Made by a program: the position numbers and the translations under genes. From Burkholderia sp. BCC0506 (lineage in GTDB: Bacteria; Pseudomonadota; Gammaproteobacteria; Burkholderiales; Burkholderiaceae), in the NCBI RefSeq assembly GCF_902833145.1, contig NZ_CADFEN010000001.1, positions 621,994 to 685,993 on the forward strand: a stretch of DNA of 64,000 nucleotides. Direction: 5' to 3'. Positions 28,128-43,738 of this stretch are shown piece by piece; positions within the stretch are counted from its first letter, which is position 1; every line of letters starts with the position of its first letter. The notes under the pieces are model-generated. The model was not told the origin of the DNA and ran no database searches. It saw nothing but the letters and a program-made list of their open reading frames with translations.

Positions 28128-29798
28128 TTATCGCCATCGCGCCCGCGCATGCGCGTCGCCGCGTGCGACGAGCGCGCGGATGCGGTCGGCGGTACGGCAT
28201 GCGATCGCCTGGATCGTCAGCGACGGATTCACGCCGCCCACCGTCGGAAACACCGAGCCGTCGCACACCCACAGGTTCGGGATGTCCCAGCAGCGGCAAT
28301 CGGCATCGACGACGCTCGTCGCCGGGTCGTCGCCCATCCGCGCGGTGCCGGCGAGATGGCACGTGTCGTCCTCCTCGTGCCAGATGTCGCGCGCGCCGGC
28401 CGCTTCCAGCGAACGACCCATCTGCGCGAGCGCGTGGCGGATCATCCGGCGGTCGTTGTCGTCGTACGAATAGGTGACGCGCGCGACCGGCAGCCCGAAC
28501 GCGTCGCGTTCGTCGGCGAGCGTCACGCGGTTCTCCGCGCGCGGCAGCGTCTCGCCGACGATCTTCAGGCCGGCCTGGAAGTTGTAGCGCGCCATCTCGC
28601 GCTTGAGCGCATCGCCCCACAGCCCGCGCGCGGCGACCTTGCGCGCCCATTCGATCGGCAGCGGCCCCTGGCTCATCCAGCAGTAGCCGCCGAAGAAATC
28701 CTTGCCCTCGTCCGCGTAGTTCCAGTGCTCGGTGATCGACAGCGACGGCGGCCCCTTGTACCAGCGCACTTCGTCGTCCATCGTCCCCCACGACGCCTGG
28801 TTGAGCTGCGCCATCAGGTAGCGGCCGACGAGGCCGGCGCTGTTCGCGAGCCCCTGCGGATGCCGCCCGTTCGCGGACAGCAGCAACAGGCGCGGCGTCT
28901 CGATCGCATACCCGGCGACGACGACGTTGCGCGCGCGCTGGAACCGGGTGCGGCCGTCGCGCACGTAGTGCACGCCGGTCACGCGGTCGCCCTCGGCCTC
29001 GATGCGCAGCGCCATCGCGAGATCGCGCACTTCGGCACCGGCCGCGACCGCCCGCGGAATCCACGTGACGAGCGCGCTCTGTTTCGCGTTGGTCGCGCAG
29101 CCGGCGATGCAGAAGCCGCGATACACGCACGGATGCGCGCGGCCGCGCGGCGCCGACAGTGTCGCGAGCGGCGTCGGCGTCCAGTCGATGCCCATCGCGT
29201 CGGCGCCGCGCGCGAGCACGAGCGCGGCCGCGTTCAGTTCGTGCGCGCGATACGGATAGCGCGGACGCGGCGGGCCCCACGGGTAGTTCACCGGCCCGCT
29301 GATCTTCAGCGCCTGTTCGACCTCGCGGTAGTAGCGCCACATCTCGCGCCAGTCGAGCGGCCAGTCGACGCCGTAGCCGAGCGCGCTGCGCGAGCGGAAC
29401 CACTCGGGCCGGAACCGCAGCGACACCATCGCGAAGTGAACCGTGCTGCCGCCGATCGCGCGGCCGCTGTTGTTGGTGCCGAGCGTGAGCGGATCGGCGC
29501 CGTCGCAGATCCGCTCGTCGGTCCAGAACAGCTTGTGCTGATGCGTCTCGTCCGACGCGAATTCCTCGAGCGGCCGCCACCATGCGCCCGCGTCGAGCGC
29601 GACGACGGAGAAACCGTATTCGGCGAGCTTGCACGCGAGCGTGCCGCCGCCCGCGCCGGTGCCGACGATCACGAAATCGACCGCGTCGTCGTCGCGGAAC
29701 ATCCGCATCGGCGACCAGCCGCCAACCCGCAACGGATCGGGCGCACGGCCGTCGCGGCCGCGCGGCGTCATGGCGGACAGCGGTTCAGCGGCGGTCAT
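28128..29798 (-). CDS. GMC-family FAD-dependent oxidoreductase (gluconate/alcohol dehydrogenase large-subunit-like)
   Basis: 556 residues. The FAD-binding motif VDFVIVGTGAGGGTLACKLA lies near residue 40. NNSGRAIGGSTVHFAMVSLR marks the GMC signature region. CVYRGFCIAGCATNAKQS holds a Cys-rich segment typical of the membrane-bound dehydrogenase branch. The C-terminal LWVCDGSVFPTVGGVNPSLT carries the active-site Asn. Such subunits oxidise sugars, sugar acids or alcohols and pass electrons to a cytochrome c. No signal peptide is present. The start overlaps the end of the subunit-3-like gene by 14 bp. Electron acceptor could be the triheme cytochrome 12 kb away (inference). Confidence 0.88.
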   Translation of the reverse strand: MTAAEPLSAMTPRGRDGRAPDPLRVGGWSPMRMFRDDDAVDFVIVGTGAGGGTLACKLAEYGFSVVALDAGAWWRPLEEFASDETHQHKLFWTDERICDGADPLTLGTNNSGRAIGGSTVHFAMVSLRFRPEWFRSRSALGYGVDWPLDWREMWRYYREVEQALKISGPVNYPWGPPRPRYPYRAHELNAAALVLARGADAMGIDWTPTPLATLSAPRGRAHPCVYRGFCIAGCATNAKQSALVTWIPRAVAAGAEVRDLAMALRIEAEGDRVTGVHYVRDGRTRFQRARNVVVAGYAIETPRLLLLSANGRHPQGLANSAGLVGRYLMAQLNQASWGTMDDEVRWYKGPPSLSITEHWNYADEGKDFFGGYCWMSQGPLPIEWARKVAARGLWGDALKREMARYNFQAGLKIVGETLPRAENRVTLADERDAFGLPVARVTYSYDDNDRRMIRHALAQMGRSLEAAGARDIWHEEDDTCHLAGTARMGDDPATSVVDADCRCWDIPNLWVCDGSVFPTVGGVNPSLTIQAIACRTADRIRALVARGDAHARARWR

Positions 29799-30450
29799 CG
29801 CGATCGCCCTCCTCCATGCGGACGTCCGCTTCCCACGGGTCGCGCCGATTGAAGTCCATCCGCACGTAGCCGCGCGGGCTCGCGGGGCCGCCGAAGCCGA
29901 TCTCGTTCCACGCGAACGGATGGCCGTAGTAGGCGCCGCAGATATCCATCAGCACGCGCTTCGTGAAGAACGTGTGCGGGTCCATGCCGGCCCAGGCCGG
30001 CGCTATCTGCGGATCGACGCGGCCTTTCCGAACCGCGTGCAGCAACGCGTCGGCGTCGGTCTCGCCGAGCGCCGCGAACGGGCAGCCATGCGCATGCCGC
30101 GCCATCGCGTCGAGCGCGGCGAGACCCGTCTGCCACGCGATGCGCAGCGGCGGCAGGCGCGCATCGCGATAGCCGTCGCCGTCGTCGGCCGCGAGGCGCG
30201 CGTCGACCAATGCAGCGGTCGGAATCGCGCCCGCGCCGCCCGGCTGTTGCGGCACGATGCGCGCGCACAGCGCACCGAGCGTCGCGAATCGCTCGGGATC
30301 CAGATGACGCGGCGCATTGGCCGCCACGCGCAGGCGCGCGTCGATCGCACGCCGCGTCGCGTCGTTCCACGACGGCGTATCGCGCTTGGCGAGCACGTCG
30401 TAACCCGGATAGCGCGGCAGCACGGCGGGCTTGCGGTTCGCGTCGCTCAT
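29785..30450 (-). CDS. gluconate 2-dehydrogenase subunit 3-like protein
   Basis: 221 residues with GGAGG before the ATG. LRVAANAPRHLDPERFATLG, then RIVPQQPGGAGAIPTAALVD and FFTKRVLMDICGAYYGHPFA followed by WNEIGFGGPASPRGYV are the conserved parts of the subunit-3 family, which accompanies GMC dehydrogenases. Family members normally carry a twin-arginine signal that exports the folded complex. This one begins MSDANRKPAVLPRYPGYDVL and has none, so the pair may work in the cytoplasm or rely on another partner. It lies between the duplicated membrane protein (4-bp overlap) and the GMC gene (14-bp overlap). Confidence 0.82.
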   Translation of the reverse strand: MSDANRKPAVLPRYPGYDVLAKRDTPSWNDATRRAIDARLRVAANAPRHLDPERFATLGALCARIVPQQPGGAGAIPTAALVDARLAADDGDGYRDARLPPLRIAWQTGLAALDAMARHAHGCPFAALGETDADALLHAVRKGRVDPQIAPAWAGMDPHTFFTKRVLMDICGAYYGHPFAWNEIGFGGPASPRGYVRMDFNRRDPWEADVRMEEGDRDDRR

Positions 30451-31298
30451 GGCGCCTCCCGTTCGGCGAGCGCGGTCGCGGCGAGCCCCGCGATCGCGAG
30501 CGCGGTAAAGCTCGGCGGCGCCGGCAGCGGCGGGCCCGACAGCAGGTTCTGCGACCAGTTGCGCCAGCCTCCCATCTGCCGCGCGATGCCGCGCGCATGG
30601 AACGCGACGCCGACGAACCCGAGCACGGCCGTCGCGCGCAGCCACCCGCGGCAGAAGCGCCGGTCGGCGCGCGGGCGCGACAGCGCGAGTTGCGCGGTCG
30701 CCAAGGCGGCCACCGGCGGCACGACGACCGGCGCGTACATCGCGCGGTGCTGGAACGCGCCGCGAAAATGCAGCAGACCGACTTCGCCGAGCGTGCCGAC
30801 GAGCCCTGCCGTCACCAGCCCGGCCAGCGCGCGACCGGCCGGCATTCCGGCGAGCCGCGGCGCGTCGGCCGGGCTCTCGCGCAGCCGCTCGCCGGCCGCG
30901 CCCAGCGCGCCCGACAGCAACAGCGCGAACGGCGCGCCGAGCGGCGCGCCATAGAACAGGTTGTGCCAGCTGAACCCGCCCGGCCGCTTCGTCACGTTGT
31001 ACAGGTGGAACACGGAGCCGGCGACGCCGACCGCGGCGGATGCGACGTGCACCGCGTCGCGCAACCGGTGGCGCGCGGGCGTGTCGTCCGCATGGCCGTG
31101 CACGCTCGCGATCACCGACAGCGTCGACATCGCGAGCGGCGCGAGCATCGCGCGATTGTGAAACGTGCCGCGATAGTGCTCGACGCCGCTGTCGGCGAGC
31201 ACCGAGCCGGCCAGCAGCAGCGCGCTGCGGTTCAGCAGCCGCGCGGCGTCGGCCAGCAACCGGTCGCGCTCGGCGGCGCGATGTCGGGGGTGTCGCAT
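30447..31298 (-). CDS. multi-pass membrane protein with an internal duplication
   Basis: 283 residues; strong ribosome-binding site AGGAGG. The two halves repeat. HYRGTFHNRAMLAP (41-54) matches HFRGAFQHRAMYAP (177-190), and FHLYNVTKRPGGFSWHN, ending LFYGAPL (97-120), matches FHARGIARQMGGWRNWSQN, ending LLSGPPL (233-258). Each half has about three hydrophobic helices. His41/His177 and His98/His234 are conserved between repeats and could bind haem or a metal. It is encoded between an enolase-superfamily enzyme and the subunit-3/GMC pair with overlaps, so it may anchor or accept electrons from that dehydrogenase. I do not recognise a named family. Confidence 0.75.
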   Translation of the reverse strand: MRHPRHRAAERDRLLADAARLLNRSALLLAGSVLADSGVEHYRGTFHNRAMLAPLAMSTLSVIASVHGHADDTPARHRLRDAVHVASAAVGVAGSVFHLYNVTKRPGGFSWHNLFYGAPLGAPFALLLSGALGAAGERLRESPADAPRLAGMPAGRALAGLVTAGLVGTLGEVGLLHFRGAFQHRAMYAPVVVPPVAALATAQLALSRPRADRRFCRGWLRATAVLGFVGVAFHARGIARQMGGWRNWSQNLLSGPPLPAPPSFTALAIAGLAATALAEREAP

Positions 31299-31317
31299 CG
31301 TTCCTCCTCGTCGGGAT

Positions 31318-32418
31318 TCAAGGCGCGAGATCCAGCAGATCGGCGGCGCGCAATTCGAGGCCGAGCCCGGCGCGCGTCGCGTCGATCTCGAGCGCGCCGT
31401 CGACGAGCCGCGGCGCGCCGTCGAACAGCATCCGCTCGATGCGCACGTGATCGTGAAACCATTCGACGTGGCGCAGGCGCGGCGCCGCGCAACCGACGTG
31501 CCGGTGCAGCGCGGGCGCGCAATGCGCGGACAGGTCGACGTGGTGCGCGTCGGCCAGCGCCGCGGCCGCGAGAAAACCGCTGACGCCGCCGCAGCGCGTC
31601 GCGTCGGCCTGCAGCACGTCGACCGCGCGGCTTTCGAGCAAGCGGCGGAAATCGTCGGGCGTATACGCGTACTCGCCGGCCGCGACGTCGACGCGCGCGC
31701 CGACATGCTCGCGCACGAACCGCAAGCCCGTGACGTCGTCGCTGCTGACGGGCTCCTCGAACCAGCGGATGTCGTAATCGGCGGCGGCCTGCGCGAACGC
31801 GAGCGCGGTGCGCGGCGCATACGCACCGTTCGCATCGACGAACAGGTCCACGCCGGGCCCGAGCGCGTCGCGCGCCGCGCGCACGCGCGACGGATCGCGC
31901 GCATCCTCCACGCCGATCTTGATCTTGCACGCGCGCACGTTTTCGGCCCGCCAGCCGTCGAGCTGCGCGGCGAGCGTCGGCGCATCGTAAGTCGTGAAGC
32001 CGCCGCTGCCGTACACCGGCACGTGCTCGCGCAGGCGGCCCAGCAGCAACGCGAGCGGCACGTCGGCGAGCTTCGCCTTCGCGTCCCACAACGCGACGTC
32101 GAGCGCCGAAATCGCGGTCGCGGCGATCCCGCCTCGGCCGACGTTGCGCACCGCGCGCCACAGCGCGTCGACGGCGGCCGGGATGTCCACCACCGGCCGG
32201 TTGCGCAGCACGCCGGCCAGCAGCGACGCCACGAGCGGCACGGCGCTCGCGTCGGTGTACGTATAGCCGAGCCCCGTCACGGGCCCCGCGTCGATCTCGA
32301 CGACGACGACCGTCGTTGCCGTCCATGCGTAGGTGCCGTCGGCTTCGGCCCGGTCGGTCGGCACGCGGTACGCGCGAGCGCGCACGTCGTCGATCGCCGG
32401 TGCGGCGGAAAGTGCCAT
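31318..32418 (-). CDS. enolase-superfamily dehydratase/racemase (mandelate racemase type)
   Basis: 366 residues, GGAG eight bases before the ATG. In the barrel, Lys165 and Lys167 form the K-x-K motif (VRACKIKIGV). Asp195, Glu221 and Glu249 are the Mg ligands (FVDANG, FEEPV, AAGEY), and Asp272 with His299 makes the general-acid/base dyad of the mandelate racemase subgroup. Such enzymes dehydrate or epimerise sugar acids or 2-hydroxy acids. Substrate is unknown. First gene of a four-gene leftward operon with the membrane protein, the subunit-3-like protein and the GMC flavoprotein, suggesting that the pathway handles an oxidised sugar or hydroxy acid. Confidence 0.87.
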   Translation of the reverse strand: MALSAAPAIDDVRARAYRVPTDRAEADGTYAWTATTVVVVEIDAGPVTGLGYTYTDASAVPLVASLLAGVLRNRPVVDIPAAVDALWRAVRNVGRGGIAATAISALDVALWDAKAKLADVPLALLLGRLREHVPVYGSGGFTTYDAPTLAAQLDGWRAENVRACKIKIGVEDARDPSRVRAARDALGPGVDLFVDANGAYAPRTALAFAQAAADYDIRWFEEPVSSDDVTGLRFVREHVGARVDVAAGEYAYTPDDFRRLLESRAVDVLQADATRCGGVSGFLAAAALADAHHVDLSAHCAPALHRHVGCAAPRLRHVEWFHDHVRIERMLFDGAPRLVDGALEIDATRAGLGLELRAADLLDLAP

Positions 32419-32477: not shown

Positions 32478-32490
32478 GGCGCATGCGGCG

Positions 32491-32549: not shown

Positions 32550-34385
32550 ATGGCGACAGTGGCGGATTTCATCGTCGAGCGGCTGTACGACTGGGGCGTG
32601 CGCCGCATCTACGGCTACCCGGGCGACGGCATCAACGGCTTTTTCGGCGCGCTGAACCGCGCGGACGGCAAGATCGAATTCATCCAGGCGCGCCACGAGG
32701 AGATGGCGGCCTTCATGGCGTCCGCGCATGCAAAATTTACAGGCGAGCTGGGCGTCTGCGTCGCGACGTCGGGCCCCGGCGCCGCGCATCTCGTGACGGG
32801 CCTGTACGACGCGCGGCTCGACCACATGCCGGTGCTCGCGATCGTCGGCCAGCAGGCGCGCGCGGCGCTCGGCGGCCACTACCAGCAGGAAGTGGATCTG
32901 CCGGCGCTTTACAAGGACGTTGCGGGCGCATTCGTTCAGCTTGCGACGGTGCCCGGCCAGGTGCGCCACCTGGTCGACCGCGCGGTGCGCACCGCGCTCG
33001 GTGCGCGCACGGTCACCGCGCTCGTGCTGCCGAACGACCTGCAGGAGCTCGACTACGCGCCGCCGAAGCGCGCGCACGGCACCGTGCATTCGGGGGTCGG
33101 CTACACGGCGCCGAAAGTCGTGCCGTATGCGGACGACCTGCGGCGCGCGGCCGACGTGCTGAACGCGGGGTCGAAAGTCGCCATGCTGGTCGGCGCCGGC
33201 GCGCTGAAGGCGACCGACGAGGTGATCGCGGTGGCCGACCGGCTCGGCGCGGGCGCCGCGAAAGCGTTGCTGGGCAAGGCCGCGCTGCCGGACGACCTGC
33301 CGTGGGTCACCGGCTCGATCGGGCTGCTCGGCACCAAGCCGAGCTACGAGCTGATGACCGAATGCGACACGCTGCTGGTCGTCGGCTCCGGTTTTCCGTA
33401 TTCGGAATTCCTGCCGAAGGAAGGCCAGGCGCGCGGCGTGCAGATCGACCTGAAGGCCGACATGCTGAGCCTGCGCTACCCGATGGAAGTGAACCTCGTC
33501 GGCGACAGCGCCGAGACGCTGCGCGCGCTGCTGCCGCTGCTGAACGAACGTCGCGATACCGCGTGGCGCGACCGGATCGCGACATGGAACCGTGACTGGC
33601 ACGAGACGCTCGCGGCCCGCGCGGCCGCGAAGGCCAGCGCCGGGCGCGGCGTGAATCCGCAGCGCGCGTTTACCGAGCTGTCGCCGCGCCTGCCCGACGA
33701 CGTGATCCTGACGAGCGATTCGGGCTCCTGCGCGAACTGGTACGCACGCGACCTGATGATGCGGCGCGGGATGATGGGGTCGCTGTCCGGCGGGCTCGCG
33801 TCGATGGGCGCCGCGGTGCCTTACGCGATCGCCGCGAAATTCGCGCATCCGGTGCGCCCGGTGATCGCGATGGTCGGCGACGGCGCGATGCAGATGAACA
33901 ACATGGCCGAGCTGATCACGGTCGCCAAATACTGGCGCCAGTGGCCCGACCCGCGCTGGATCTGCATGGTGCTGAACAACGAGGACCTGAACCAGGTCAC
34001 GTGGGAGCAGCGCGTGATGGAAGGCGACCCGAAGTTCGACGCGTCGCAGCAGATCCCGAACGTGCCGTACTACCGCTTCGCGACGCTGCTCGGCCTCAAG
34101 GGCATCTACGTCGACGATCCGGAACAGCTCGGCGCCGCGTGGGACGAAGCGCTCGCGTCCGACCGGCCGGTCGTGCTCGAAGTGAAGAGCGACCCCGAGG
34201 TGCCGCCGCTGCCGCCGCACGTGACGCTGCAGCAGGCGAAGCATTTCGCCGAAACGCTGGTGAAAGGCGACGCGCGCGAAGCCAACGTGATCGTCGAGAC
34301 CGCGCGGCAGGTGCTGTCGGCCGTGCTGCCGGGCAGCGGCGAACACGGCGACAAGCGCGGCAACGGAGGGAAAAACGAATCGTGA
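32550..34385 (+). CDS. thiamine-diphosphate-dependent enzyme (pyruvate oxidase / acetolactate synthase-like)
   Basis: 611 residues, AAGGAG seven bases before the ATG. Three domains are visible. The N-terminal pyrimidine-binding part has the catalytic glutamate in QARHEEM (Glu50) and GVCVATSGPGAAHLVTGLYD. The middle domain (about 195-330) is of the FAD/NAD-like type. The C-terminal domain has the diphosphate motif GDGAMQMNNMAELITVAKYW, ending in LNN. It resembles PoxB and YdaP rather than biosynthetic acetolactate synthase, because no small subunit gene is present. PoxB binds the membrane and feeds quinones. Here a role in overflow or stress pyruvate oxidation is plausible but unproven. Confidence 0.88.
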   Translation: MATVADFIVERLYDWGVRRIYGYPGDGINGFFGALNRADGKIEFIQARHEEMAAFMASAHAKFTGELGVCVATSGPGAAHLVTGLYDARLDHMPVLAIVGQQARAALGGHYQQEVDLPALYKDVAGAFVQLATVPGQVRHLVDRAVRTALGARTVTALVLPNDLQELDYAPPKRAHGTVHSGVGYTAPKVVPYADDLRRAADVLNAGSKVAMLVGAGALKATDEVIAVADRLGAGAAKALLGKAALPDDLPWVTGSIGLLGTKPSYELMTECDTLLVVGSGFPYSEFLPKEGQARGVQIDLKADMLSLRYPMEVNLVGDSAETLRALLPLLNERRDTAWRDRIATWNRDWHETLAARAAAKASAGRGVNPQRAFTELSPRLPDDVILTSDSGSCANWYARDLMMRRGMMGSLSGGLASMGAAVPYAIAAKFAHPVRPVIAMVGDGAMQMNNMAELITVAKYWRQWPDPRWICMVLNNEDLNQVTWEQRVMEGDPKFDASQQIPNVPYYRFATLLGLKGIYVDDPEQLGAAWDEALASDRPVVLEVKSDPEVPPLPPHVTLQQAKHFAETLVKGDAREANVIVETARQVLSAVLPGSGEHGDKRGNGGKNES

Positions 34386-34415: not shown

Positions 34416-36194
34416 CTAGCCGATGTCGACATCGTCCCGCCCGTCGCCCTGCAGCGCGAGCGCCGCATTCACGAGCCCGACCTGCGCGAGCGTGAACGGG
34501 AAATTCCCGCACAGGCGCCGCGCCTTCACGTCGTATTCCTCGGACAGCAGCCCGACGTCGTTACGCAAGCCGAGCAACCGGTCGAACAGCGCGTGGGCGT
34601 CGGCGTCGCGCCCCTGCATCCGGTACACCTGCACGAGCCAGAAGCCGGCTGCCAGAAACGCGCCTTCGTCGCCTTCGCAGCCGTCGGCGAAGCGCGGCGG
34701 GCGATAGCGGAACGGCAAGCCGTCGTCCATCAGCTCGCGCTCGATCGCGGCGACCGTCGCGACGACGCGCGGGTCGGACGCATCGAGCATCCCCGTCAGC
34801 GGAATCAGCAACAGGCTGATGTCGATGCCGTCGCCGTCGAAGCGGTCGACGAAGCGGCCGAGCCGCGCATGGTAGCCGCGCTCCAGCACCTCCGCGCGCA
34901 CCGCGTCGGCCCAGCGCCGCCACACGTCGAGCGGCGCATGGTGGCCGAATGCGCGCGCGGAACGGTACGCGCTTTCGACCGCAGCCCATACCATCACCTT
35001 CGACGACGTGAACGGATGCCGGCCGCTGCGCACCTCCCAGATGCCTTCGTCCGGTGCCTGCCAGATCGTCGCGAGATGTTCGAGCAGGCGCCGCTCGAGC
35101 ATCCACGCGTCGTCGTCGGGCGGCAGCCCGTGCCGGCGCGCCTGGTACAGCGCGCCGAGCACCTCGCCGTACACGTCGAGCTGCAACTGGTCGGCGGCCG
35201 CGTTGCCGAAGCGCACCGGCCGCGCGCCTTCATAGCCGGCCAGATGCGCGGCCTGCCACTCGGCCGCGCGCCGGCCGCCGTCGGCCGCATACAGCACCTG
35301 CAGTTGCGACGGATGATCGGCGATCGCACGCACGAGCCAGTCGCGCCAGCGCGCGGCTTCGTCGCGATAGCCGCAGCGCACCAGCGCGCGCAGCGTAAAG
35401 CTCGCATCGCGCAACCAGCAGAACCGGTAGTCCCAGTTGCGCTTGCCGCCGAAGCGCTCGGGCAGCGAACTGGTCGGCGCCGCGACGATCCCGCCGGTGC
35501 GCAGGCTCGACAGCAGCTTCACCGTGATCAGCGCGCGTTCGATCGCATCGCGATGCGGGCCCTGCGCGGCGTTGCACTTCGACCAGACGCGCCAGAACGC
35601 GTGCGTGTCGTGCAGCGACGCGTACGCATCGGGCACGGCCGGCGCCGGGTCGAACGAGCGCGCGTAGCTGATGCAGAATTCCACCCGCTCGCCCGCCGCG
35701 ATCCGCCGCGTGCCGACCAGCCGGTCGCTCTGCACGTCGAGCCGCGCATCCGTGTCGAGCCACATCGCGTCGCCGCCCGTCATCATCCGCCAGCGCCGGC
35801 CGAAACGCCGGCACCACGGCAGCGCGCTGCCGTAGTCGAAGCGCACGCCGAGATCGACGTCGATGTCGACCGTCCCGCGTTCGCCCTTCACGCTGCGGAT
35901 CAGGCACGGATCGGGCGCGTTCCAGCTCATCCAGTCGGTGATCGAGACGCCACCCGACGAGGTTTCGAACGTCGTTTCGAGGATCGCGGTGCCCGGCAGG
36001 TAGCGGCGCGTGACGCGGGTATCGCGCTCGCGCGGCGCGATCCGGAACCGGCCGTTGTCCGGCGTGCCGACGAGCGCGGCGAAGCACGGCGGCGAATCGA
36101 AGTCCGGCCAGCACAGCCAGTCGATGCTGCCGTCGCGCGCGACGAGCGCCGCGCCGCGGCCGTCGCCGACGAGCGCGTAGTCCTCGATCCGCAT
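34416..36194 (-). CDS. GH15 glucoamylase-like glycoside hydrolase
   Basis: 592 residues from the ATG at 36194; an ATG at 36212 would overlap the upstream gene. The N-terminal IEDYALVGDGRGAALVARDG and IDWLCWPDFDSP open the bacterial GH15 beta-sandwich. The (alpha/alpha)6 barrel has WDYRFCWLRDASFTLRALVR. The likely general acid is in EGIWEVRSGRHPFTSSKVM and the general base in LLSEEYDVKARRLCGNFPF. The enzymes cleave glucose from alpha-glucans or trehalose. No signal peptide, so it acts inside the cell. It follows the SDR gene by five bases. Confidence 0.9.
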   Translation of the reverse strand: MRIEDYALVGDGRGAALVARDGSIDWLCWPDFDSPPCFAALVGTPDNGRFRIAPRERDTRVTRRYLPGTAILETTFETSSGGVSITDWMSWNAPDPCLIRSVKGERGTVDIDVDLGVRFDYGSALPWCRRFGRRWRMMTGGDAMWLDTDARLDVQSDRLVGTRRIAAGERVEFCISYARSFDPAPAVPDAYASLHDTHAFWRVWSKCNAAQGPHRDAIERALITVKLLSSLRTGGIVAAPTSSLPERFGGKRNWDYRFCWLRDASFTLRALVRCGYRDEAARWRDWLVRAIADHPSQLQVLYAADGGRRAAEWQAAHLAGYEGARPVRFGNAAADQLQLDVYGEVLGALYQARRHGLPPDDDAWMLERRLLEHLATIWQAPDEGIWEVRSGRHPFTSSKVMVWAAVESAYRSARAFGHHAPLDVWRRWADAVRAEVLERGYHARLGRFVDRFDGDGIDISLLLIPLTGMLDASDPRVVATVAAIERELMDDGLPFRYRPPRFADGCEGDEGAFLAAGFWLVQVYRMQGRDADAHALFDRLLGLRNDVGLLSEEYDVKARRLCGNFPFTLAQVGLVNAALALQGDGRDDVDIG

Positions 36195-36199
36195 CGCGC

Positions 36200-37195
36200 T
36201 CACCGGTTCCATTTGCGCGCGGCGGCAAACACGGCGGCACACGTGGCCGCGAGCACCGCGACGGCCGCGCCGAACGCGAGCGCGCGCGACGCGCCGAGCC
36301 CGGCCGCCACGCCGGTGCGACGCGCTTCGTCGCTGAATGCGCCGCGGGTCGCATGCCGGCCCGGCACGGTCGCCCACAGGTTCGACGGGCGCGGGCCGGC
36401 CGGCGCCGCGCGCTGCTGGCCGCGCACGGCGGTACGCGCGAGATACCGGTCGAAGCAGCCCGGCGCGATGCCGTTCGCGACGATCGCCGCGAGCGACGAC
36501 CAGCCGACCCACCGCTCGCGGCACGGATGCCGGGCGGCGTGCACGATCGCGTCGGCCGCCACCTCCGGCGCATAGACCGGCGCGACCGGACGCGGCGCAT
36601 GCGGCAGCGTCGATTCGGCCCAGTCGAACTGCGGCGTGTCGATCGCGGGCAGTTGGACCATCGTCACGCGCACGCGGCTGCGTGCATGCAGCAGCTCGCA
36701 GCGCAGCGCGTCGGTGAAACCGCGGATCGCGTGCTTCGCGCCGCAGTACGGCGTCTGCAGCGGAATCGACCGGTACGCGAGCGCCGAGCCGACCTGCACG
36801 ATCGTGCCGCGGTCGCGCGCGGCCATCCGCGCGAGCGCGGCCCGCGTGCCGTAGACGCAGCCGAGATAGGTGACGTTCGTCACGCGCGCGTAGTCTTCGG
36901 GCGCAATCGCGCCGAACGGCGCGAACACTGTGACCATCGCATTGTTGACCCATACGTCGAGCGGCCCGAGTTCGTGTTCGATCCGCTCGGCTGCCGCGTC
37001 GAGCGCGGCCGCATCGCTGACGTCGACGGCGATCGGCAACGCGCGGACGCCGTACGCGCGCACCTCGCGCGCCGTGTCGTGCAGCGCACGCGGATCGCGC
37101 GCGAGCAGCGCGACGTCCGCGCCGCGCCGCGCGAACGCGTGGGCGGTCGCGCGGCCGACGCCGGCACTCGCGCCCGTGATCGCGACGGTCTTCAC
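36200..37195 (-). CDS. short-chain dehydrogenase/reductase with C-terminal membrane segment
   Basis: 331 residues from a GTG start that has GGAGG eight bases upstream. KTVAITGASAGVGRATAHAF is the cofactor-binding motif, VNNAM the NNAG-type motif and YCGAKHA the catalytic Tyr-x3-Lys; the catalytic Ser lies in QVGSALAYRS. A 90-residue C-terminal extension ends in a hydrophobic helix (LAFGAAVAVLAATCAAVFAA), so the enzyme is probably tethered to the inner membrane. This arrangement is common in an SDR subgroup of Burkholderia and rhizobia. It precedes the GH15 gene and the two are probably co-transcribed. Confidence 0.85.
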   Translation of the reverse strand: MKTVAITGASAGVGRATAHAFARRGADVALLARDPRALHDTAREVRAYGVRALPIAVDVSDAAALDAAAERIEHELGPLDVWVNNAMVTVFAPFGAIAPEDYARVTNVTYLGCVYGTRAALARMAARDRGTIVQVGSALAYRSIPLQTPYCGAKHAIRGFTDALRCELLHARSRVRVTMVQLPAIDTPQFDWAESTLPHAPRPVAPVYAPEVAADAIVHAARHPCRERWVGWSSLAAIVANGIAPGCFDRYLARTAVRGQQRAAPAGPRPSNLWATVPGRHATRGAFSDEARRTGVAAGLGASRALAFGAAVAVLAATCAAVFAAARKWNR

Positions 37196-37276
37196 GGTCG
37201 GTTCCTCCCGTTTCGATGAGAGCCGGCGCGCCGCCGACGCTTTCGCGCCGCATCGGGCCGGAACGCGATCGGCTCA

Positions 37277-37290
37277 GCAAACGGCATGCC
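37277..37290 (-). promoter_or_regulatory. sigma-54-like element upstream of the SDR-glucoamylase pair
   Basis: Read leftward, CGGCAT-GCCGT-TTGCT has GG-N10-GC spacing and a good TTGCT -12 box; the -24 box ends in T instead of C. It is about 82 bp before the GTG start, within the 290-bp divergent region shared with the cytochrome oxidase genes. No matching rightward element is seen. Confidence 0.33.
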
Positions 37291-37485
37291 GCCGGCCACG
37301 CGGTCCGGCGTGCTCCGGCGTGTGCCGCGAACGGTCGCCCAATTTACAAGCCCGCTGTAACGCACCGGCCATCGAAGCGCGCCATTGCGCCGCGTCGCGG
37401 CCGCCCCGCGCAAATCGCGCGCGCACGAAGATTGCTCTGCCGCGAACGGTTGTCGTCATGCCGGCGAAGCCGGCAAGGAGCCGCA

Positions 37486-38547
37486 TTGCTCGTCCCGCCG
37501 TCCAGGAAATCGCGTCGTATCGCACGCCTCGCGCCGTTCGCGTGGGCGATCGTGCCGATCGCACCGTGCGCGGCCAGCGAGCTTGCGGCGCCCGGCAATC
37601 CGGCCGCGCCGCTGCCGCTCGCCTACGTGGCGCAAGCGGCCGGCCCCGCCGCGCAGCCGGTTTTCGTGCTCGGCTGGGCGCTGCTCGCGCTGTGCACGTT
37701 CGTCTGCGTCGCGATCGCCGTGCTGCTGCTGATCGCGCTGTTTCGTCGTCGTTCACAGGCGGGCGGCGGCCACGGCAGCGGCCTGACGATCGTGACGATG
37801 GGCACCGCGATCTCGATCCTGCTGCTGTTCGGCGCGCTCGTGTACATGCTGCGCGTGCTGGGCGCGGTCGCGGCACCGCCGCGACCGCCCGCGCTGACGA
37901 TCGTGGTGACCGCGCAAGACTGGTGGTGGGCCGTTCGTTATCCGGACGATGCGGACGGCCCGGGCTTCGTCACGGCGAACGAGATCCACATTCCGGTGGG
38001 CGAGCCCGTCGCGATCGAACTGAAGAGCGCCGACGTGATCCACGCGTTCTGGGTGCCGCAACTCGCCGGCAAGACGCAGACGATACCCGGCCAGACGAAC
38101 CGGCAATGGCTGCAGGCCGACCGGCCGGGCGTCTATCGCGGGCAGTGTTCGCAATACTGCGGCGCGCAGCATGCGCACATGGCGTTCGAGGTGGTGGCCG
38201 AACCGCCGGCCGCGTTTCGTGCGTGGCGCGCCGCGCAGCGGCAGCCGGCCCGCGCACCCGCGGCGGCCGCCGGCTCCGAGCGTCGCGGCCAGCGCGTGTT
38301 CGCCGCGCGCTGCGCGGGCTGCCACGCGGTGCGCGGCACCGACGCGGCGGGCGACGCCGGCCCCGATCTCACGCACGTCGGCACGCGCCGGCTGCTCGCG
38401 GCCGGCACGCTCGACAACACGCCCGACAACCTGCGCCGCTGGATCGCGCATGCGCAGCAGATCAAGCCGCAGTCGCTGATGCCGTCGATCGCGCTCGCGC
38501 CGCGCGACGCCGACGATCTCGCCGCGTATCTCGCGACGCTGCACTGA
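37486..38547 (+). CDS. cytochrome c oxidase subunit II fused to a cytochrome c domain (caa3 type)
   Basis: 353 residues from a TTG start at 37486, chosen because AAGGAG lies six bases upstream and no better start precedes the hydrophobic leader. After the leader come two membrane helices (about 50-75 and 90-120). The CuA domain follows, with the first ligand in ADVIHAFWVPQL and the cluster CSQYCGAQHAHM. A C-terminal cytochrome c with CAGCH and a likely distal ligand in SLMPS completes the protein. This is the electron entry subunit of a caa3-type oxidase, in the inner membrane facing the periplasm. It heads a rightward four-gene cluster. Confidence 0.9.
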   Translation: MLVPPSRKSRRIARLAPFAWAIVPIAPCAASELAAPGNPAAPLPLAYVAQAAGPAAQPVFVLGWALLALCTFVCVAIAVLLLIALFRRRSQAGGGHGSGLTIVTMGTAISILLLFGALVYMLRVLGAVAAPPRPPALTIVVTAQDWWWAVRYPDDADGPGFVTANEIHIPVGEPVAIELKSADVIHAFWVPQLAGKTQTIPGQTNRQWLQADRPGVYRGQCSQYCGAQHAHMAFEVVAEPPAAFRAWRAAQRQPARAPAAAAGSERRGQRVFAARCAGCHAVRGTDAAGDAGPDLTHVGTRRLLAAGTLDNTPDNLRRWIAHAQQIKPQSLMPSIALAPRDADDLAAYLATLH

Positions 38548-38560
38548 ACCGAGGATGCCG

Positions 38561-41200
38561 ATGGCCATTGCCCGCGACACGCCCACCCCGCTCAGCCGCG
38601 TACCCGATCTCGGCGAAGCGCCGCCCGGTTCCGCGCACGAGCACGCGCTGGCCGAGCTGTGGGAATCGGAACCCGGCTGGCGCGGCTGGCTCGGCACCGT
38701 CGATCACAAGCGCATCGGGCTGCGCTACATCGTCACCGCGTTCGCGTTCCTGCTGCTCGGCGGCGTCGAGGCGCTCGTGATGCGCATCCAGCTCGCGCGC
38801 CCGAACGCAACGGTGCTCACGCCCGCGCAATACGACTCGCTGTTCACGATGCACGGCGTCACGATGATCTTCCTGTACGCGCTGCCGGTGCTGTCCGGCT
38901 TCGCGAACTACCTGTGGCCGCTGATGCTCGGCTCGCGCGACATGGCGTTTCCGCGCCTGAACGCGTTCTCGTACTGGGCGTTCCTGTTCGCCGGGCTGTT
39001 CCTGTACGCGAGCTTTCCGCTCGGCGCGGTGCCGGACGGCGGCTGGTTCAACTACGTGCCGCTCACGTCGCTCGACTACAGCGCCGGCGCGAACATCGAC
39101 ATCTATGCGCTCGGGATGATCCTGCTCGGCATCTCGACGACGGGCGGCGCCGCGAACTTCGTCGTCACGCTGCTGCGCATGCGCGCGCACGGCATGTCGA
39201 TCGACCGGCTGCCGATCATCGTGTGGGGCACGCTCACCGCGTCGGTCGCGAACCTCGTCGCGGTGCCGTCGGTGAGCCTCGCGTTCCTGCTGCTGTGGCT
39301 CGACCGCAATGCCGGCACGCACTTCTTCGACGTCGCGCACGGCGGCCGGCCGCTGTTGTGGCAGCACCTGTTCTGGATGTTCGCGCATCCGTGGGTGTAC
39401 GTGGTCGTGCTGCCGGCGATGGGGATCGTGTCCGACGCGCTGCCGACCTTCTGCCGGCGGCCGCTCGTCGCGTACGAGGCCGTCGCGGTGTCGACGGTCG
39501 CGACGATGCTGATCGGCTTCGAGGTGTGGGTCCACCACATGTTCGCGACGGGCATCGCGCCGCTCGCGCTCGCGTTCTTCGGCGCCGCGAGCATGCTGAT
39601 CTCGATTCCGAGCGCGGTGGCGGTGTTCGCGTGGATCGCGACGATCTGGACCGGCCGCCCGGTATTCCGCACGCCGTTCCTGTATTTCGCGGGCTTCGTG
39701 CTGATGTTCGTGATCGGCGGCGTGTCAGGCGTGATGACTGCCGCCGTGCCGCTCGACTGGCAGTTGACCGATACGTACTTCGTCGTCGCGCACCTGCATT
39801 ACGTGCTGCTCGGCATCAACGTATTTCCGGTGCTCGGCGGCGTCGCGTACTGGTTCCCGAAGTTCACCGGGCGGATGATGAACGAGCGGTTCGGCCGCTG
39901 GACCTTCTGGGTCGTGCTGGTCGGCTTCAACCTCGGCTTCTTCCCGATGCACGTCTCCGGGCTGCTCGGGATGCCGCGCCGCATCTATACCTATCCGTCG
40001 GGGATGGGCTGGGATACGTCGAACCTGCTGACGACGATCGGCTCGTTCGTGTTCGGGATCGGCATCGCGATGTTCGTCGTCAACGCACTGGTGAGCGCGC
40101 GGCGCGGCGTGCGCGCCGGCGAGAACCCGTGGGGTGCGGCCGGCCTCGAATGGTCGGTCGCGTCGCCCACGCCCGTGTACAACTTCGCGGTGCTGCCGCT
40201 CGTCGCGTCGCGGCATCCGCTATGGGAAACCCGCGACGATCCGCAACGCACCAGCCTGCGGGTCGGCTACCGGCTCGCGCACGGGCGCGAGGCGCTCGCG
40301 GTCACGCCGCTCGCCGCCGCGCCCAGCGCGATCCTGAAGATGCCCGAGGACAGCTGCGTGCCGTTCGTGCTCGCGCTGCTCGCGACCGCCGTGTTCGCGG
40401 CGATGCTCGCGCGCTCGCCTGCGCTCGTCTGCGTGGCCGCAGCCGGTTGCGCGATCGCCACCGCGGCGTGGCTGTGGCCGCGCCGCGAACTCGGCCAACG
40501 CGCGCGCCTGCCGGCCCGCGTCGACACGCCGGCGCCCGCCGCGGCCGCCGGGCTTCATCCGGACGAACCGCCGTCGGCGGCGGTGCCGGCCGGCGCGCCG
40601 GCTGCGTGCATCGAGCCGCTGCCGGTCGGCAGTTGCGGCGAGCGCGCGGGCGGCTGGTGGGGCGTGCTCACGCTGATCGTGACCGAGGCCGGGCTGTTCG
40701 GCTACCTGCTGTTCTGCTATTTCTACCTGCAGTCGCAGTGGTCCGCGCCGTGGCCGCCCGAAGGGCTGCCGAAGATCGGGCTCGCGGCCGCCAACACCGC
40801 CGTGCTGCTGTCGAGCAGCGTGTTCGTGTGGCTTGCGGAGCGCGCGGTGCGGGCCGACCGGCACGCGCGCGCGGTCGCGATGCTCGTCGTCGCGCTGGTG
40901 CTCGGCACCGCGTTCGCGCTGGTCCAGTTGCACGAATGGCGCGACCATCCGTACGGCCCGACCGCGCATCTGTACGGCAGCCTCTACTTCACGATCACCG
41001 GGTTCCACCTCGCGCACGTCGTCGCCGGTCTCGCGATCCTCGCGCTGCTCGCCGGGTGGACGGCCGCCGGCTTCTTCGGCCGCGACCGGCGCGTCGCGCT
41101 GACGGTCGGCGGGCTCTACTGGCACTTCGTCGACATCGTGTGGCTGTTCATCTTCACCGCGCTGTACGTCTCGCCGTTCTGGCTGAGGAGCACGGGATGA
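38561..41200 (+). CDS. cytochrome c oxidase subunit I-III fusion lacking the canonical Glu and Lys of the proton pathways
   Basis: 879 residues; the ATG at 38561 has GAGG six bases upstream. Residues 1-580 are COX1, with TMHGVTMIF and VAHLHYVLLG holding haem ligands, CuB His325-His326 in VHHMF, and active-site His276-Tyr280. Residues from about 690 are COX3 (VTEAGLFGYLLFCYFYLQ). In the classical HPEVY motif Glu is Trp278 (AHPWVYV). The K-pathway lysine position reads Ala354 (IPSAVAVFAW). Neither the Glu of A1 oxidases nor the Tyr-Ser of A2 oxidases is present, while D-pathway Asp127 and Asn134 remain. The proton route is therefore unusual or impaired. Confidence 0.9.
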   Translation: MAIARDTPTPLSRVPDLGEAPPGSAHEHALAELWESEPGWRGWLGTVDHKRIGLRYIVTAFAFLLLGGVEALVMRIQLARPNATVLTPAQYDSLFTMHGVTMIFLYALPVLSGFANYLWPLMLGSRDMAFPRLNAFSYWAFLFAGLFLYASFPLGAVPDGGWFNYVPLTSLDYSAGANIDIYALGMILLGISTTGGAANFVVTLLRMRAHGMSIDRLPIIVWGTLTASVANLVAVPSVSLAFLLLWLDRNAGTHFFDVAHGGRPLLWQHLFWMFAHPWVYVVVLPAMGIVSDALPTFCRRPLVAYEAVAVSTVATMLIGFEVWVHHMFATGIAPLALAFFGAASMLISIPSAVAVFAWIATIWTGRPVFRTPFLYFAGFVLMFVIGGVSGVMTAAVPLDWQLTDTYFVVAHLHYVLLGINVFPVLGGVAYWFPKFTGRMMNERFGRWTFWVVLVGFNLGFFPMHVSGLLGMPRRIYTYPSGMGWDTSNLLTTIGSFVFGIGIAMFVVNALVSARRGVRAGENPWGAAGLEWSVASPTPVYNFAVLPLVASRHPLWETRDDPQRTSLRVGYRLAHGREALAVTPLAAAPSAILKMPEDSCVPFVLALLATAVFAAMLARSPALVCVAAAGCAIATAAWLWPRRELGQRARLPARVDTPAPAAAAGLHPDEPPSAAVPAGAPAACIEPLPVGSCGERAGGWWGVLTLIVTEAGLFGYLLFCYFYLQSQWSAPWPPEGLPKIGLAAANTAVLLSSSVFVWLAERAVRADRHARAVAMLVVALVLGTAFALVQLHEWRDHPYGPTAHLYGSLYFTITGFHLAHVVAGLAILALLAGWTAAGFFGRDRRVALTVGGLYWHFVDIVWLFIFTALYVSPFWLRSTG

Positions 41201-41598
41201 ACGACGCCCGACGCGCATGGACACCGCTGCTCGCGATCGCCGCCGGCCTCGTCGGCGCGCCCGCGCTGTGGTTCGCGCAGATGCTCGTGTCCGAAACGCT
41301 CGCGTCCACCGCATGCTATCCGCTCGGTGTCGCGCAGGCCGTGCCGCGCTGGGCCCACGTCGGCGTGTGGCTCGCGCTGATCGCCGCGGGCGCGTTCGCG
41401 CTGGCCGCGGCCTGTGCGACATGGCTCGCGCGCGCGTGGCGGCGCCGGCACGATGCCGATGCGCCGGTCGTGACCCGCGACGACAGTACGCGCTTTCTCG
41501 CGCGCTGCGGGATGCTCGCCGCGCTCGGCTTCGTGATCGGTCTGGTGTTTACGGGGATCGTCACCGCTTTCGTGGGGCCTTGCAGTCCATGGCGCTGA
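41197..41598 (+). CDS. small membrane protein of the oxidase cluster
   Basis: 133 residues, with the ATG overlapping the COX1-III stop (ATGA) and GAGGAG upstream. Three hydrophobic helices (about 10-30, 53-75 and 103-125) are separated by short loops. Two Cys residues near 39 and 130 (STACYPLG and FVGPCSPWR) are a possible pair on the periplasmic side. It is not subunit IV or CtaG by any motif I know. Its tight coupling to the oxidase genes suggests an accessory or assembly subunit. Confidence 0.65.
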   Translation: MNDARRAWTPLLAIAAGLVGAPALWFAQMLVSETLASTACYPLGVAQAVPRWAHVGVWLALIAAGAFALAAACATWLARAWRRRHDADAPVVTRDDSTRFLARCGMLAALGFVIGLVFTGIVTAFVGPCSPWR

Positions 41599-43172
41599 TC
41601 TCGCTCGCTTCGTTGCCGTTCCAGGTTCCGGGCCGCCGCGCGCGCGTCGCGTTCGCCGTGTGCGTCGCGCTCTGCGGATGCGACATGCAGCGCGACGACA
41701 ACGCGGCCGCACCCGGCGATGCGGCAGACGCCGCGTCGGCGGCGGAAGCGCCCGAGCCCGCGTCGGGCTGGCGGTTCGTGCGGATCCGTGCGTCGGCGGC
41801 CGATGCAGCGGCGTCGATGTCCGCGCGCGCGAAGGACGACCGGCGGCTGTCACGCGACCGGGACGCGTCGGTGGCCGATGCGCCAACGTCCGCGGCGTCC
41901 ACCCCGCCGCCGGATGCGGCTTCCGCCTCGACCGCCCGCCGCCCGGTCATCGCCGCGGCGGCCGCGAGCGCCGACGCCGCGACGCTCGCGCGCGGCCGCT
42001 ATCTCGCGCTCGCCGGCGATTGCGCCGCGTGCCACGACGCGGCCGACCATACGCCGTACGCGGGCGGCCAGCCGGTGAATTCGCCGTTCGGGCCGATCTA
42101 TGCGCCGAACATCACGCCGGACCCGACGCACGGGATCGGCCACTACACACTGCGTCAGTTCGACGATGCGTTGCGGCGCGGCGTGCGCGCCGACGGCAGC
42201 CGGCTGTATCCGGCGATGCCGTACCCGTCGCTCGCGCACCTGACCGACGACGACGTGCGCGCACTGTATGCGTACTTCATGCGCGGCGTCGCGCCCTCCG
42301 CGAACGCGGCCAAACTCACGCAACTGCCGTTTCCGTTCAATCAGCGTTGGGCACTCGGGCTCTGGAGCCTCGCGTTCGCGAACCGCGACCGGTTCGTGCC
42401 GCAGCCGTCGCGATCGGCACAATGGAATCGCGGTGCGTATCTCGTGCAGGGGCTCGGCCATTGCGGCGCCTGCCATACGCCGCGCGGGCCGGCCTACAAC
42501 GAACGCGGCTACGACGAGCGCAGCCCCGCGTTCCTGACCGGCGGCATCAACGATCACTGGTTCGCGCCGAACCTGACCGGCGCGGACCCGGACGGCCTCG
42601 GCCGCTGGTCGGCCGACGACATCGCCGCGTTCCTGCGCAGCGGCCATGCGGCGCACGGCGCGGTGTTCGGCGCGATGGCGCCGGTCGTCGGCGAAAGCAC
42701 CGCGTTGCTGACGGATGCCGACCGCCAGGCGATCGCCGTGTACCTGAAGTCGTTGCCCGCGCAACCGACTGCGGCGACGAATCCGCTGGGCGTGGGCGTG
42801 CCGCGGCTCACGGCCGCCGGCCCGCGGCCGGAAAGCGGCCAGCAGGCGCCGGGGGCCGGCGTGTATGCGGGGTTCTGTGCGCGTTGCCATGGCGCCGAAG
42901 GTCAAGGCGTCCGCGATCGCGGGCCGGCGCTCGCCGGCAGCTCGATCGTGCTGGCGGCCGATCCGACCAGCACGATCCGGATCGTGGTCGAAGGCGCGCG
43001 GCCCACACCCGGCAAGCCGGGGCCGGTGCAGCGGATGCCCGCGATGCGCGGTGCGCTGACGAGCAACGAAATCGCCGCGGTGGTCAGCTACGTGCGCGGC
43101 GCGTGGGGGAATCGCGCCGCGCCGGTGTCGGAGCGGGAGGTGCGGCGGTTGCGGGGGGCGATACACAGGTAG
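41589..43172 (+). CDS. triheme cytochrome c lipoprotein (dehydrogenase cytochrome-subunit type)
   Basis: 527 residues. A lipobox ALCGC puts the acylated cysteine at 31, followed by a ~100-residue Ala/Asp/Arg-rich linker. Three cytochrome c domains have haem motifs CAACH (145-149), CGACH and CARCH. The domain layout (YLALAGDCAACH, NITPDPTHGIGHY, GHCGACHTPRG, FCARCHGAEGQG) is that of the cytochrome subunits of gluconate, alcohol or aldehyde dehydrogenases, which pass electrons to quinone or an oxidase. It overlaps the previous gene by 10 bp. I infer that it links a periplasmic dehydrogenase to the caa3 oxidase encoded upstream. Confidence 0.88.
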   Translation: MALISLASLPFQVPGRRARVAFAVCVALCGCDMQRDDNAAAPGDAADAASAAEAPEPASGWRFVRIRASAADAAASMSARAKDDRRLSRDRDASVADAPTSAASTPPPDAASASTARRPVIAAAAASADAATLARGRYLALAGDCAACHDAADHTPYAGGQPVNSPFGPIYAPNITPDPTHGIGHYTLRQFDDALRRGVRADGSRLYPAMPYPSLAHLTDDDVRALYAYFMRGVAPSANAAKLTQLPFPFNQRWALGLWSLAFANRDRFVPQPSRSAQWNRGAYLVQGLGHCGACHTPRGPAYNERGYDERSPAFLTGGINDHWFAPNLTGADPDGLGRWSADDIAAFLRSGHAAHGAVFGAMAPVVGESTALLTDADRQAIAVYLKSLPAQPTAATNPLGVGVPRLTAAGPRPESGQQAPGAGVYAGFCARCHGAEGQGVRDRGPALAGSSIVLAADPTSTIRIVVEGARPTPGKPGPVQRMPAMRGALTSNEIAAVVSYVRGAWGNRAAPVSEREVRRLRGAIHR

Positions 43173-43254: not shown

Positions 43255-43653
43255 TCAGCGCGCCAGCACCGCCACCGCCTTGATCTCGACGATATAGCCC
43301 GGCGCGCCGCCGAGCATGTGCGCGCCGACGGCCGTCCACGCCGGCAGCGGATGTGCGTGGAAATAGCGGTCGCGCACCTGCATGAACAGCGGCAGGTCGC
43401 GCATGTCGGTGTGAAACGTCGTGAGGTCGACCACGTCGTCGAACGATGCGCCGGCCGCGGCCAGCACGAGCCTCAGGTTCTCGAACGCCTGCACGATCTG
43501 CGCTTCGCGATCCGCGACCAGTTGCATCGCCGCGTCGCGGCCGATCTGGCCGGATACGTATAGCGTATCGCCGACCTTCAGCCCCGGCGCATAGCCGATC
43601 TTTTCGTACACCGCTTCCATTCCCGCCGGAACGATGGCTTTGCGTTCACGCAT
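43255..43653 (-). CDS. RidA/YjgF family protein
   Basis: 132 residues from the ATG at 43653, with GGAG six bases before it. VGDTLYVSGQIGRD, FENLRLVLAAAGASFDDVVD and PAWTAVGAHMLGGAPGYIVE are conserved RidA segments. The canonical arginine of RidA (in the RTT motif) is replaced in AWTAVGAH, so it belongs to a related Rid subgroup that may not hydrolyse 2-aminoacrylate. Rid relatives often accompany aromatic catabolic operons and may deaminate or clear reactive imine or enamine products. It follows benD by 85 bp in the same direction. Confidence 0.85.
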   Translation of the reverse strand: MRERKAIVPAGMEAVYEKIGYAPGLKVGDTLYVSGQIGRDAAMQLVADREAQIVQAFENLRLVLAAAGASFDDVVDLTTFHTDMRDLPLFMQVRDRYFHAHPLPAWTAVGAHMLGGAPGYIVEIKAVAVLAR

Positions 43654-43738
43654 GGATGTCTCCGTGGCCGGCGGCGTCGCGCCGGCCGTCTGGTTGTCGA
43701 TCAACGCTGTCGATGAATAGCGGCAAGCAGTACGCCGT

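Follow-up and report, generated by a model that had tools for sequence, protein, structure and literature searches.

Can a haem-copper oxidase do without both the Glu of its HPEVY motif and the Lys of its K-pathway? The need for these two residues in O2 reduction, as against coupling, has been argued mainly from mutants. A 64,000-nucleotide stretch of Burkholderia sp. BCC0506 (NCBI RefSeq assembly GCF_902833145.1, contig NZ_CADFEN010000001.1, positions 621,994 to 685,993 of the forward strand; hereafter the window, from a genome of 7.29 Mb in 45 contigs) encodes an oxidase that raises this question in a natural protein. Its fused subunits I and III (COX1-COX3) carry Trp at the Glu position and Ala at the Lys position. 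Both residues are absent throughout a clade of 49 sequences and, by comparison of trees and subunit II alignments, the K-pathway was abandoned earlier by a clade larger than this branch. Our reading, whose chances we put about level, is of a working cytochrome c:O2 oxidase with low or no proton pumping that would drain periplasmic dehydrogenases. The oxidase genes and the codons in question are as follows.

37216..38547, + strand: subunit II (CuA) fused to a cytochrome c domain (Pfam COX2, Cytochrom_C; NCBIfam TIGR02866 CoxB above cut-off; loop alignment)
38555..41200, + strand: subunit I-III fusion (caaA/ctaD), 881 amino acids (Pfam COX1 at 53-499, 484.7 bits; COX3 at 701-872)
38939..38941, + strand: codon of D129, the D-pathway entrance Asp, kept
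39392..39394, + strand: codon TGG of W280, at the HPEVY Glu position
39434..39436, + strand: codon of D294, adjoining S293 (the K-pathway Ser position)
39620..39622, + strand: codon GCG of A356, at the K-pathway Lys position

Loss of the HPEVY Glu and the K-pathway Lys

Residues are numbered along the 881-residue open reading frame (ORF) from 38555. An earlier, sequence-only reading of this DNA counted from the second ATG (38561), and its numbers are 2 lower: its Trp278, Ala354, Asp127 and Asn134 are W280, A356, D129 and N136, and the motifs are as it gave them. The helix VI motif as read from the ORF is LWQHLFWMFAHPWVYVVV, the protein reading MFAHPWVYVVV, and the K-pathway Lys region reads IPSAVAVFAW. 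The metal ligands (H100, H278, H327, H328, H413 and H415), the cross-link Tyr (Y282) and the D-pathway D129 and N136 are present, again as claimed, and R77, R475, R476, N118, N201 and S194 are also kept. The other two COX1 genes in the genome (L001, and the bo3-like L002) retain Glu and Lys.

The fusion scores 692.7 bits with TIGR02891 CtaD_CoxA (cut-off 670.75), and its best NCBIfam family scores are to family A. Its AlphaFold2 model has a mean predicted local distance difference test score (pLDDT) of 88.8 and a predicted TM-score (pTM) of 0.90, and the best Foldseek match of that model is the caa3 oxidase 2yev_A (TM-score 0.93 by target length, 36% identity). The sequence family, the six His ligands and the helix VI Tyr are those of family A COX1, with ligands and Tyr in 49/49 clade sequences. 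The Glu of the A1 motif xGHPEVY (PMC8361435) is replaced by Trp in HPWVY in all 49. The Tyr-Ser pair of the A2 motif YSHPxVY (PMC8361435) is also missing: the window has Phe-Ala there, as the sequence-only reading had seen, and the clade has Phe in 49/49 followed by Ala (39) or Gly (10). The D-channel entrance Asp and Asn ladder of A1 and A2 enzymes is in place (scored as D129, N136, N201 and N118). Among the K-channel residues Lys, Thr, Ser and Tyr as defined in PMC3084760, Ser and Tyr are kept, Lys has become Ala and Thr has become Ser. The family B K-channel set of Thr, Ser and Tyr (PMC3084760) agrees at one position in three (S353), with A356 where Thr would be and S293 where Tyr would be. 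Cytochrome c is fused to subunit II in one ORF, which is the caa3 layout. Sequence and fold place the enzyme among family A oxidases, but it fits neither the A1 nor the A2 definition.

Trp occupies position 280 in all 49 clade sequences, and position 356 is Ala in 47, Ser in one and Thr in one. Glu and Lys are both absent in every member, so that the window gene belongs to a branch, as had been supposed, and is not a lone oddity; the presence of the motif in all 49 also rules out chance or sequencing error. Members were drawn from plasmid records, GTDB genomes (the best 80 of a longer list) and further genome samples. They come from three proteobacterial classes and include Burkholderia, Paraburkholderia, Caballeronia, Methylobacter, Rhodanobacter, Nitrosospira, Sphingomonas, Roseovarius, Methylocystis, Methylocella and Mesorhizobium, with COX1 and COX3 fused in some and split in others. 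One family, Burkholderiaceae, supplies 28 of the 49; excluding those and L091 leaves 20. Six of 398 evenly drawn Pseudomonadota genomes, the window's own included, have a match of at least 61% identity, and the motif was read in 6/6. Matches with an E-value of 1e-220 or lower occur in 89 of 398 Burkholderiaceae genomes, and HPWVY with Ala is found in 28/28 newly fetched loci.

The gene is under purifying selection. In comparisons with two Burkholderia copies the ratio of nonsynonymous to synonymous substitution rates (dN/dS) comes to 0.16 and 0.13, and in one with Paraburkholderia to 0.27; most of the matches listed in the 89 Burkholderiaceae genomes have no internal stop. Loss of the Mg-site His (position 405) was considered as a further mark of the clade and dropped, as Lys-bearing enzymes vary there too (16 Thr, 12 Gln and 9 His of 39).

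Order of the two losses

We compared 175 COX1 sequences (177 aligned rows less L003, which duplicates the window, and L148, which duplicates L019; another window copy, L090, was never added). They comprise 39 with Glu and Lys, 72 with Glu and Gln, 49 with Trp and Ala, Ser or Thr (the Trp clade), 3 with Trp and Gln, and 12 other Glu-less sequences (6 Asp, 4 Ile, 1 Leu, 1 Val, with Ala at the Lys site in three of the Ile rows). The HPEVY Glu is changed in 64 of 136 Lys-less sequences versus none of 39 that bear Lys, as counts of sequences and not of events. The Lys-bearing sample came mostly from a search aimed at the Trp clade and contains no A2 enzyme.

Events were counted on a tree of 146 rows, which also omits 25 of the 28 Burkholderiaceae loci, L091, L153, and partial L159 and L173. 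The Lys state changes once on it, with all Lys-bearing rows on one side of a branch supported at 100 by the Shimodaira-Hasegawa-like approximate likelihood ratio test (SH-aLRT), and the presence of Glu changes at least six times. A hand-picked 62-row subset gave the same counts (Lys 1, Glu 6). These were quick trees, made from alignments with both trait regions cut out beforehand; the parsimony counts are minima, and the direction of change is taken from the Lys-bearing root side. On the 62-row set, in approximately unbiased (AU) tests with groups defined by residue after earlier trees had been seen, forcing all Trp rows into one clade was rejected (p-AU 0.0004), as was forcing all Glu-less rows together (p-AU 0.00002). 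By these trees, Trp at the HPEVY Glu site arose more than once. The change counts and AU tests together indicate that within the sample Lys was lost once and Glu was changed repeatedly, on the Lys-less side only.

Subunit II tells the same story about the K-pathway, which starts at a Glu in this subunit (PMC8361435). Among the 106 loci up to L119 with a recognisable CuA motif, this entry Glu is present in 32/32 Lys-bearing loci versus 0/74 Lys-less ones, the window among the latter. The K-pathway has therefore been abandoned in both subunits and, as the trees place it, earlier than the Trp branch and by a larger clade. The implication is that A1-like enzymes that have given up the K-pathway can also lose the Glu. 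The rule is limited to the sampled A1-like enzymes and does not extend to all of family A, because the A2 enzyme 2yev lacks Glu and keeps Lys.

Two observations on variable sites belong here. The CuA motif of the window's subunit II is CSQYCGAQHAHM, with Gln at the usual Glu (CSQYC). Gln stands there in 11 of 21 clade loci (Val in one more), in 0/49 of the Glu+Gln group and in 2 of 32 Lys-bearing loci (Leu in one more); because of those two, it was set aside as a mark of the clade. Separately, a set sampled around an Actinomycetota locus has HPIVY with Ala (L167, L172, L175), HPIVY with Gln (L166), HPVVY with Val (L156), and HPLVY with Gln and a Glu at the D129 position (L157). The three HPIVY+Ala rows have a Tyr at the K-pathway Ser position, as in family B.

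Proton entry, electron donors and function

The D-pathway entrance is strictly kept. D129, N136, N201 and S194 are each present in 49/49 clade sequences and N118 in 47/49, which argues that the entry is under selection. All four of the canonical Asp and Asn residues are found in 47/49 of the Trp clade, in 39/39 Lys-bearing sequences and in 13/72 of the Glu+Gln group. In that last group N201 is Glu in 53/72, N118 is Ile or Val in 49/72, N136 is Ser or Thr in 25/72 and D129 is Asn in 16/72. Examples are L008, L025, L027, L031, L035 and L046, and the N136 changes sit at a known laboratory decoupling site. Replacing this Asn with Ser, Thr or Asp decouples pumping while O2 reduction stays normal, and such changes rescued a single step of the reaction in an enzyme mutated in the K-pathway (PMC12901375). 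The Glu+Gln sisters may on this account be naturally decoupled by another route, the Trp clade having held on to the entry ladder and dropped the terminal Glu.

A displaced Glu or Lys would have undone the sequence-only reading. We scanned the 12 subunit I helices in 20 clade sequences at an 80% threshold, and found no Asp, Glu or His that is conserved in the clade and absent from Lys-bearing enzymes. The only new charges are R57 and position 208 at the end of helix IV (16 Arg, 4 Lys), so that in this sequence-level search a partial Lys at 208 is the sole candidate. At the D294 site an acid is kept: the clade has Asp in 49/49, and Lys-bearing enzymes have Glu in 34/39. The polar residues that are newly conserved in the clade are Y108, S114, S117, W121, T196, T228, N233, T314 and T317. 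The D-pathway is lined by helices II and IV, so several of these could support a wire of hydroxyls and water. S117 was dropped from that wire because it is Ala in the window.

Likely donors of electrons to the oxidase are suggested by the genes on either side of it.

28128..29798, - strand: GMC-family flavin oxidoreductase, probable dehydrogenase large subunit (Pfam GMC_oxred_N/C)
29785..30438, - strand: gluconate 2-dehydrogenase subunit 3-like small subunit (Pfam PF13618)
30447..31334, - strand: protein with no Pfam match, a member of the GMC/gluconate-dehydrogenase set
31318..32418, - strand: enolase-superfamily (MR/MLE) protein (Pfam MR_MLE_C/N)
32550..34385, + strand: thiamine-diphosphate enzyme (Pfam TPP_enzyme_N/M/C)
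41197..41598, + strand: small protein of 133 amino acids, read from the DNA and overlapping the stop of the COX1-COX3 gene
41589..43172, + strand: tri-haem cytochrome c, 527 amino acids (Pfam Cytochrom_C in 3 stretches; three CxxCH)

The genes of Paraburkholderia sp. D15 run from a thiamine-diphosphate enzyme through an enolase-type protein, a hypothetical protein, gluconate 2-dehydrogenase subunit 3 and a GMC oxidoreductase to coxB and ctaD. The first five have homologues, 58-77% identical and rearranged, at 28128-34385 in the window (GMC 77%, small subunit 58%, hypothetical 66%, enolase-type 60%, and the thiamine-diphosphate enzyme 77% over 189 residues). It is likely on these grounds that a three-part dehydrogenase of GMC protein, small subunit and tri-haem cytochrome c feeds the oxidase.

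Relatives point the same way. Neighbours were listed for 89 loci, and either an alcohol dehydrogenase of the pyrroloquinoline quinone (PQQ) type with cytochrome c or a homologue of the tri-haem cytochrome lies near the oxidase at 15 of 16 Trp+Ala/Ser loci versus none of 36 Lys-bearing ones, counting self-hits and with about 7 kb on both sides available in 18 of the 36. The tri-haem homologue has three CxxCH in the window and at eight loci without a PQQ dehydrogenase, and two in L006, where a PQQ dehydrogenase is present. Among the other groups, a PQQ dehydrogenase (at least 40% identity) or the cytochrome occurs at 11/33 Glu+Gln loci, and a PQQ dehydrogenase occurs at L022 (Trp+Gln) and at neither of two Asp+Gln loci.

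In the ORF at 37216-38547 the similarity to CoxB sets in at residue 142, and the start of subunit II is tentative. A Pfam scan gave no match for the 133-residue protein, which has homologues at most, not all, clade loci. A GH15 glucoamylase/trehalase-like gene (34416-36203, - strand) stands between the dehydrogenase set and the oxidase. Downstream, at 43255-47456 (- strand), ORFs resemble an aromatic-ring dioxygenase operon (alpha, beta, reductase and short-chain dehydrogenase) as judged from the ORF list alone.

How would such an enzyme work? Changing Glu to Gln or Lys to Met in A1 oxidases blocks proton uptake or the reduction of haem a3 (PMC8361435, PMC12901375). Another proton route, low pumping or both is therefore the natural reading of a clade without either residue, and in this the sequence-only reading was well judged; its further suggestion of NO reduction did not hold up, as discussed below. 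The HPEVY Glu is described as the point where pumped and substrate protons part ways (PMC8361435), and in its absence little or no pumping is to be expected. We picture an active, membrane-bound enzyme of caa3 layout that would take electrons from periplasmic sugar or alcohol dehydrogenases, of GMC/gluconate-dehydrogenase type in the window and PQQ type in relatives, as the neighbourhoods suggest. Electrons would pass from the tri-haem cytochrome c to the cytochrome c domain of subunit II, CuA, haem a and haem a3-CuB, arriving at CuA from the periplasmic side. Chemical protons would be drawn from the cytoplasm through the D-pathway and would pass W280 over the Glu-free stretch by water and hydroxyls, for which S194, T195, T196, Y108 and S114 of helices II and IV are candidates. 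A remnant K ladder (D294, S293, S353, S346 and Y282) perhaps adds a path. With no Glu to split pumped from chemical protons, few or no protons would be pumped, and charge separation would still be gained, the electrons coming in from one side and the protons from the other.

Several points weigh against this. A working enzyme needs compensation, because the A1 Glu-to-Gln and Lys-to-Met changes block. Loss of Glu alone does not prove loss of pumping, as A2 enzymes without it are classed in family A. Y108 is Phe in 2/49 clade sequences, and S117 is Ser in 18/20 relatives and Ala in the window. The dehydrogenase link is one of neighbourhood alone, most of the queries used to find neighbours were taken from the clade itself, L018 has neither a PQQ dehydrogenase nor the tri-haem cytochrome nearby, and the Trp+Gln locus L019 also lacks the dehydrogenase link. 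The literature searched held no activity, spectrum or H+/e- ratio for a clade member. Under most of the conditions tested, B. cenocepacia H111 does not express the corresponding operon; expression of its caa genes was confined to minimal agar, at a level 11-fold that in liquid (PMC11742914). Expression on minimal agar fits a specialised outlet.

The loss of both residues could instead be fully compensated. On that account the enzyme is a complete pump with other wiring, in which water chains, the H-pathway, or relays through Y108 and hydroxyls replace Glu and Lys. A2 enzymes set a precedent, with their Tyr-Ser pair in place of Glu (PMC8361435), a case has been made that every family conserves an H-pathway (PMC12901375), and in favour too is a D-pathway ladder that is strictly kept in the clade but degraded in the Glu+Gln sisters. 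We nonetheless think this unlikely, since the subunit I helices hold no new conserved acid or His, and Lys-less lineages have Trp, Asp, Ile, Leu or Val at the Glu site, a variety that suggests relaxed need rather than one new relay. The strict ladder in turn speaks against a non-electrogenic oxidase supplied with protons from the periplasm, like the cytochrome c-dependent nitric oxide reductase (cNOR), in which Sousa et al. report no cytoplasmic channel (PMC3084760): invariant D129, N136 and N201 are hard to explain if cytoplasmic uptake has been dropped. This idea draws on seven regions fetched from clade members' genomes for a weak COX1-family match. Six of their haem-copper proteins (L178-L181, L183 and L184; not L182) have HLWVE in helix VI, with the Trp at the W280 position in a His-anchored register. 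The two checked by PDB hits are named nitric oxide reductases (NORs), and NCBIfam gave a NOR model for none of the six. The register rests on the His motif, MAFFT having misaligned helix VI at 18-20% identity. Trp-Val after His-x in HLWVE and HPWVY is possibly a shared mark of non-pumping enzymes, and we regard periplasmic uptake itself as quite improbable.

The same Trp after His-x could be taken to mean that the enzyme is itself a NOR, or acts on something other than O2. The NOR motifs H-x-arom-x-E and H-H-x-arom-arom-x17-E (PMC3084760; arom, aromatic) are not found: HPWVY supplies the aromatic residue but has Tyr for Glu at 282, and HHMFA is out of keeping. Y282 is invariant (49/49), a COX3 domain, CuA and a cytochrome c subunit are present, and the fold is closest to that of the caa3 oxidase 2yev. 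NO reduction is therefore very unlikely. Finally, the silence of the H111 operon in most conditions would suit a decaying or inactive relic, a view to which we give next to no credence: dN/dS lies at 0.13-0.27, the listed Burkholderiaceae matches are mostly free of internal stops, haem and copper ligands are intact in 49/49, and the H111 genes do respond to minimal agar.

We return to the low- or non-pumping oxidase and offer a wider proposal, tentatively, as one more apt to fail than to hold. A large natural clade of family A would work without the K-pathway; the Glu of the D-pathway would then have become dispensable, changing at least six times with Trp chosen repeatedly; and the Trp branch would be an all-chemistry, no-pump valve for periplasmic sugar and alcohol oxidation, supplied by the D-pathway only. 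If true, the Trp branch uncouples O2 reduction from proton pumping and gives an outlet for sugar and alcohol electrons from outside the cell membrane. Annotation of such genes as ordinary proton-pumping caa3 may overstate the energy yield of the cell. Natural enzymes without the Glu, the Lys and the subunit II entry Glu occur across three proteobacterial classes, and intermediate states are still living (Glu+Gln, Asp+Gln, Trp+Gln and Ile+Ala). The clade offers ready-made proteins for separating catalysis from pumping.

Known systems

The literature searched, supplements aside, held no report of the HPWVY motif or of a missing K-channel in such oxidases. The main-text passages of Degli Esposti et al. 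2021 (PMC8239418), on K-channel-atypical family A oxidases, do not mention the combination of Glu-less and Lys-less. The A1 aa3 enzymes of R. sphaeroides, P. denitrificans and bovine share the fold, the ligands, the Tyr and the D-pathway entrance with the window, but they have the Glu, the Lys and the subunit II entry Glu, and the window has none of the three.

A close described relative is caaBAC of B. cenocepacia H111 (PMC11742914), which has the same order of subunit II-cytochrome c, COX1-3, small membrane protein and cytochrome c. The nearest named hit to the window protein, 96.7% identical, is from a B. cenocepacia record, which points to an organism like those of the Burkholderia cepacia complex. 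The 133-residue protein of the window is probably caaP of that paper, and the 527-residue tri-haem cytochrome is probably its caaC. The paper treats the oxidase as a Thermus-like caa3, and its section 5 and further passages do not mention the missing Glu and Lys. The Thermus caa3 operon does carry cytochrome c on subunit II (PMC11742914), and Thermus thermophilus caa3 (2yev) is, like the window protein, a COX1-COX3 fusion without the HPEVY Glu (YSHPTVY). The Thermus enzyme differs in having the A2 Tyr-Ser pair and the K-pathway Lys (GVKLF), where the window has Phe-Ala and Ala.

The CoxMNOP-type oxidases of rhizobia and Pseudomonas (PMC5492768) are probably the sister group, in which Gln replaces the K-pathway Lys, the subunit II Glu is absent and some loci have a nearby PQQ dehydrogenase. 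By organism and layout, KF707 and the CoxN of B. japonicum would belong to it. Unlike the window, this group keeps HPEVY and has altered its D-pathway.

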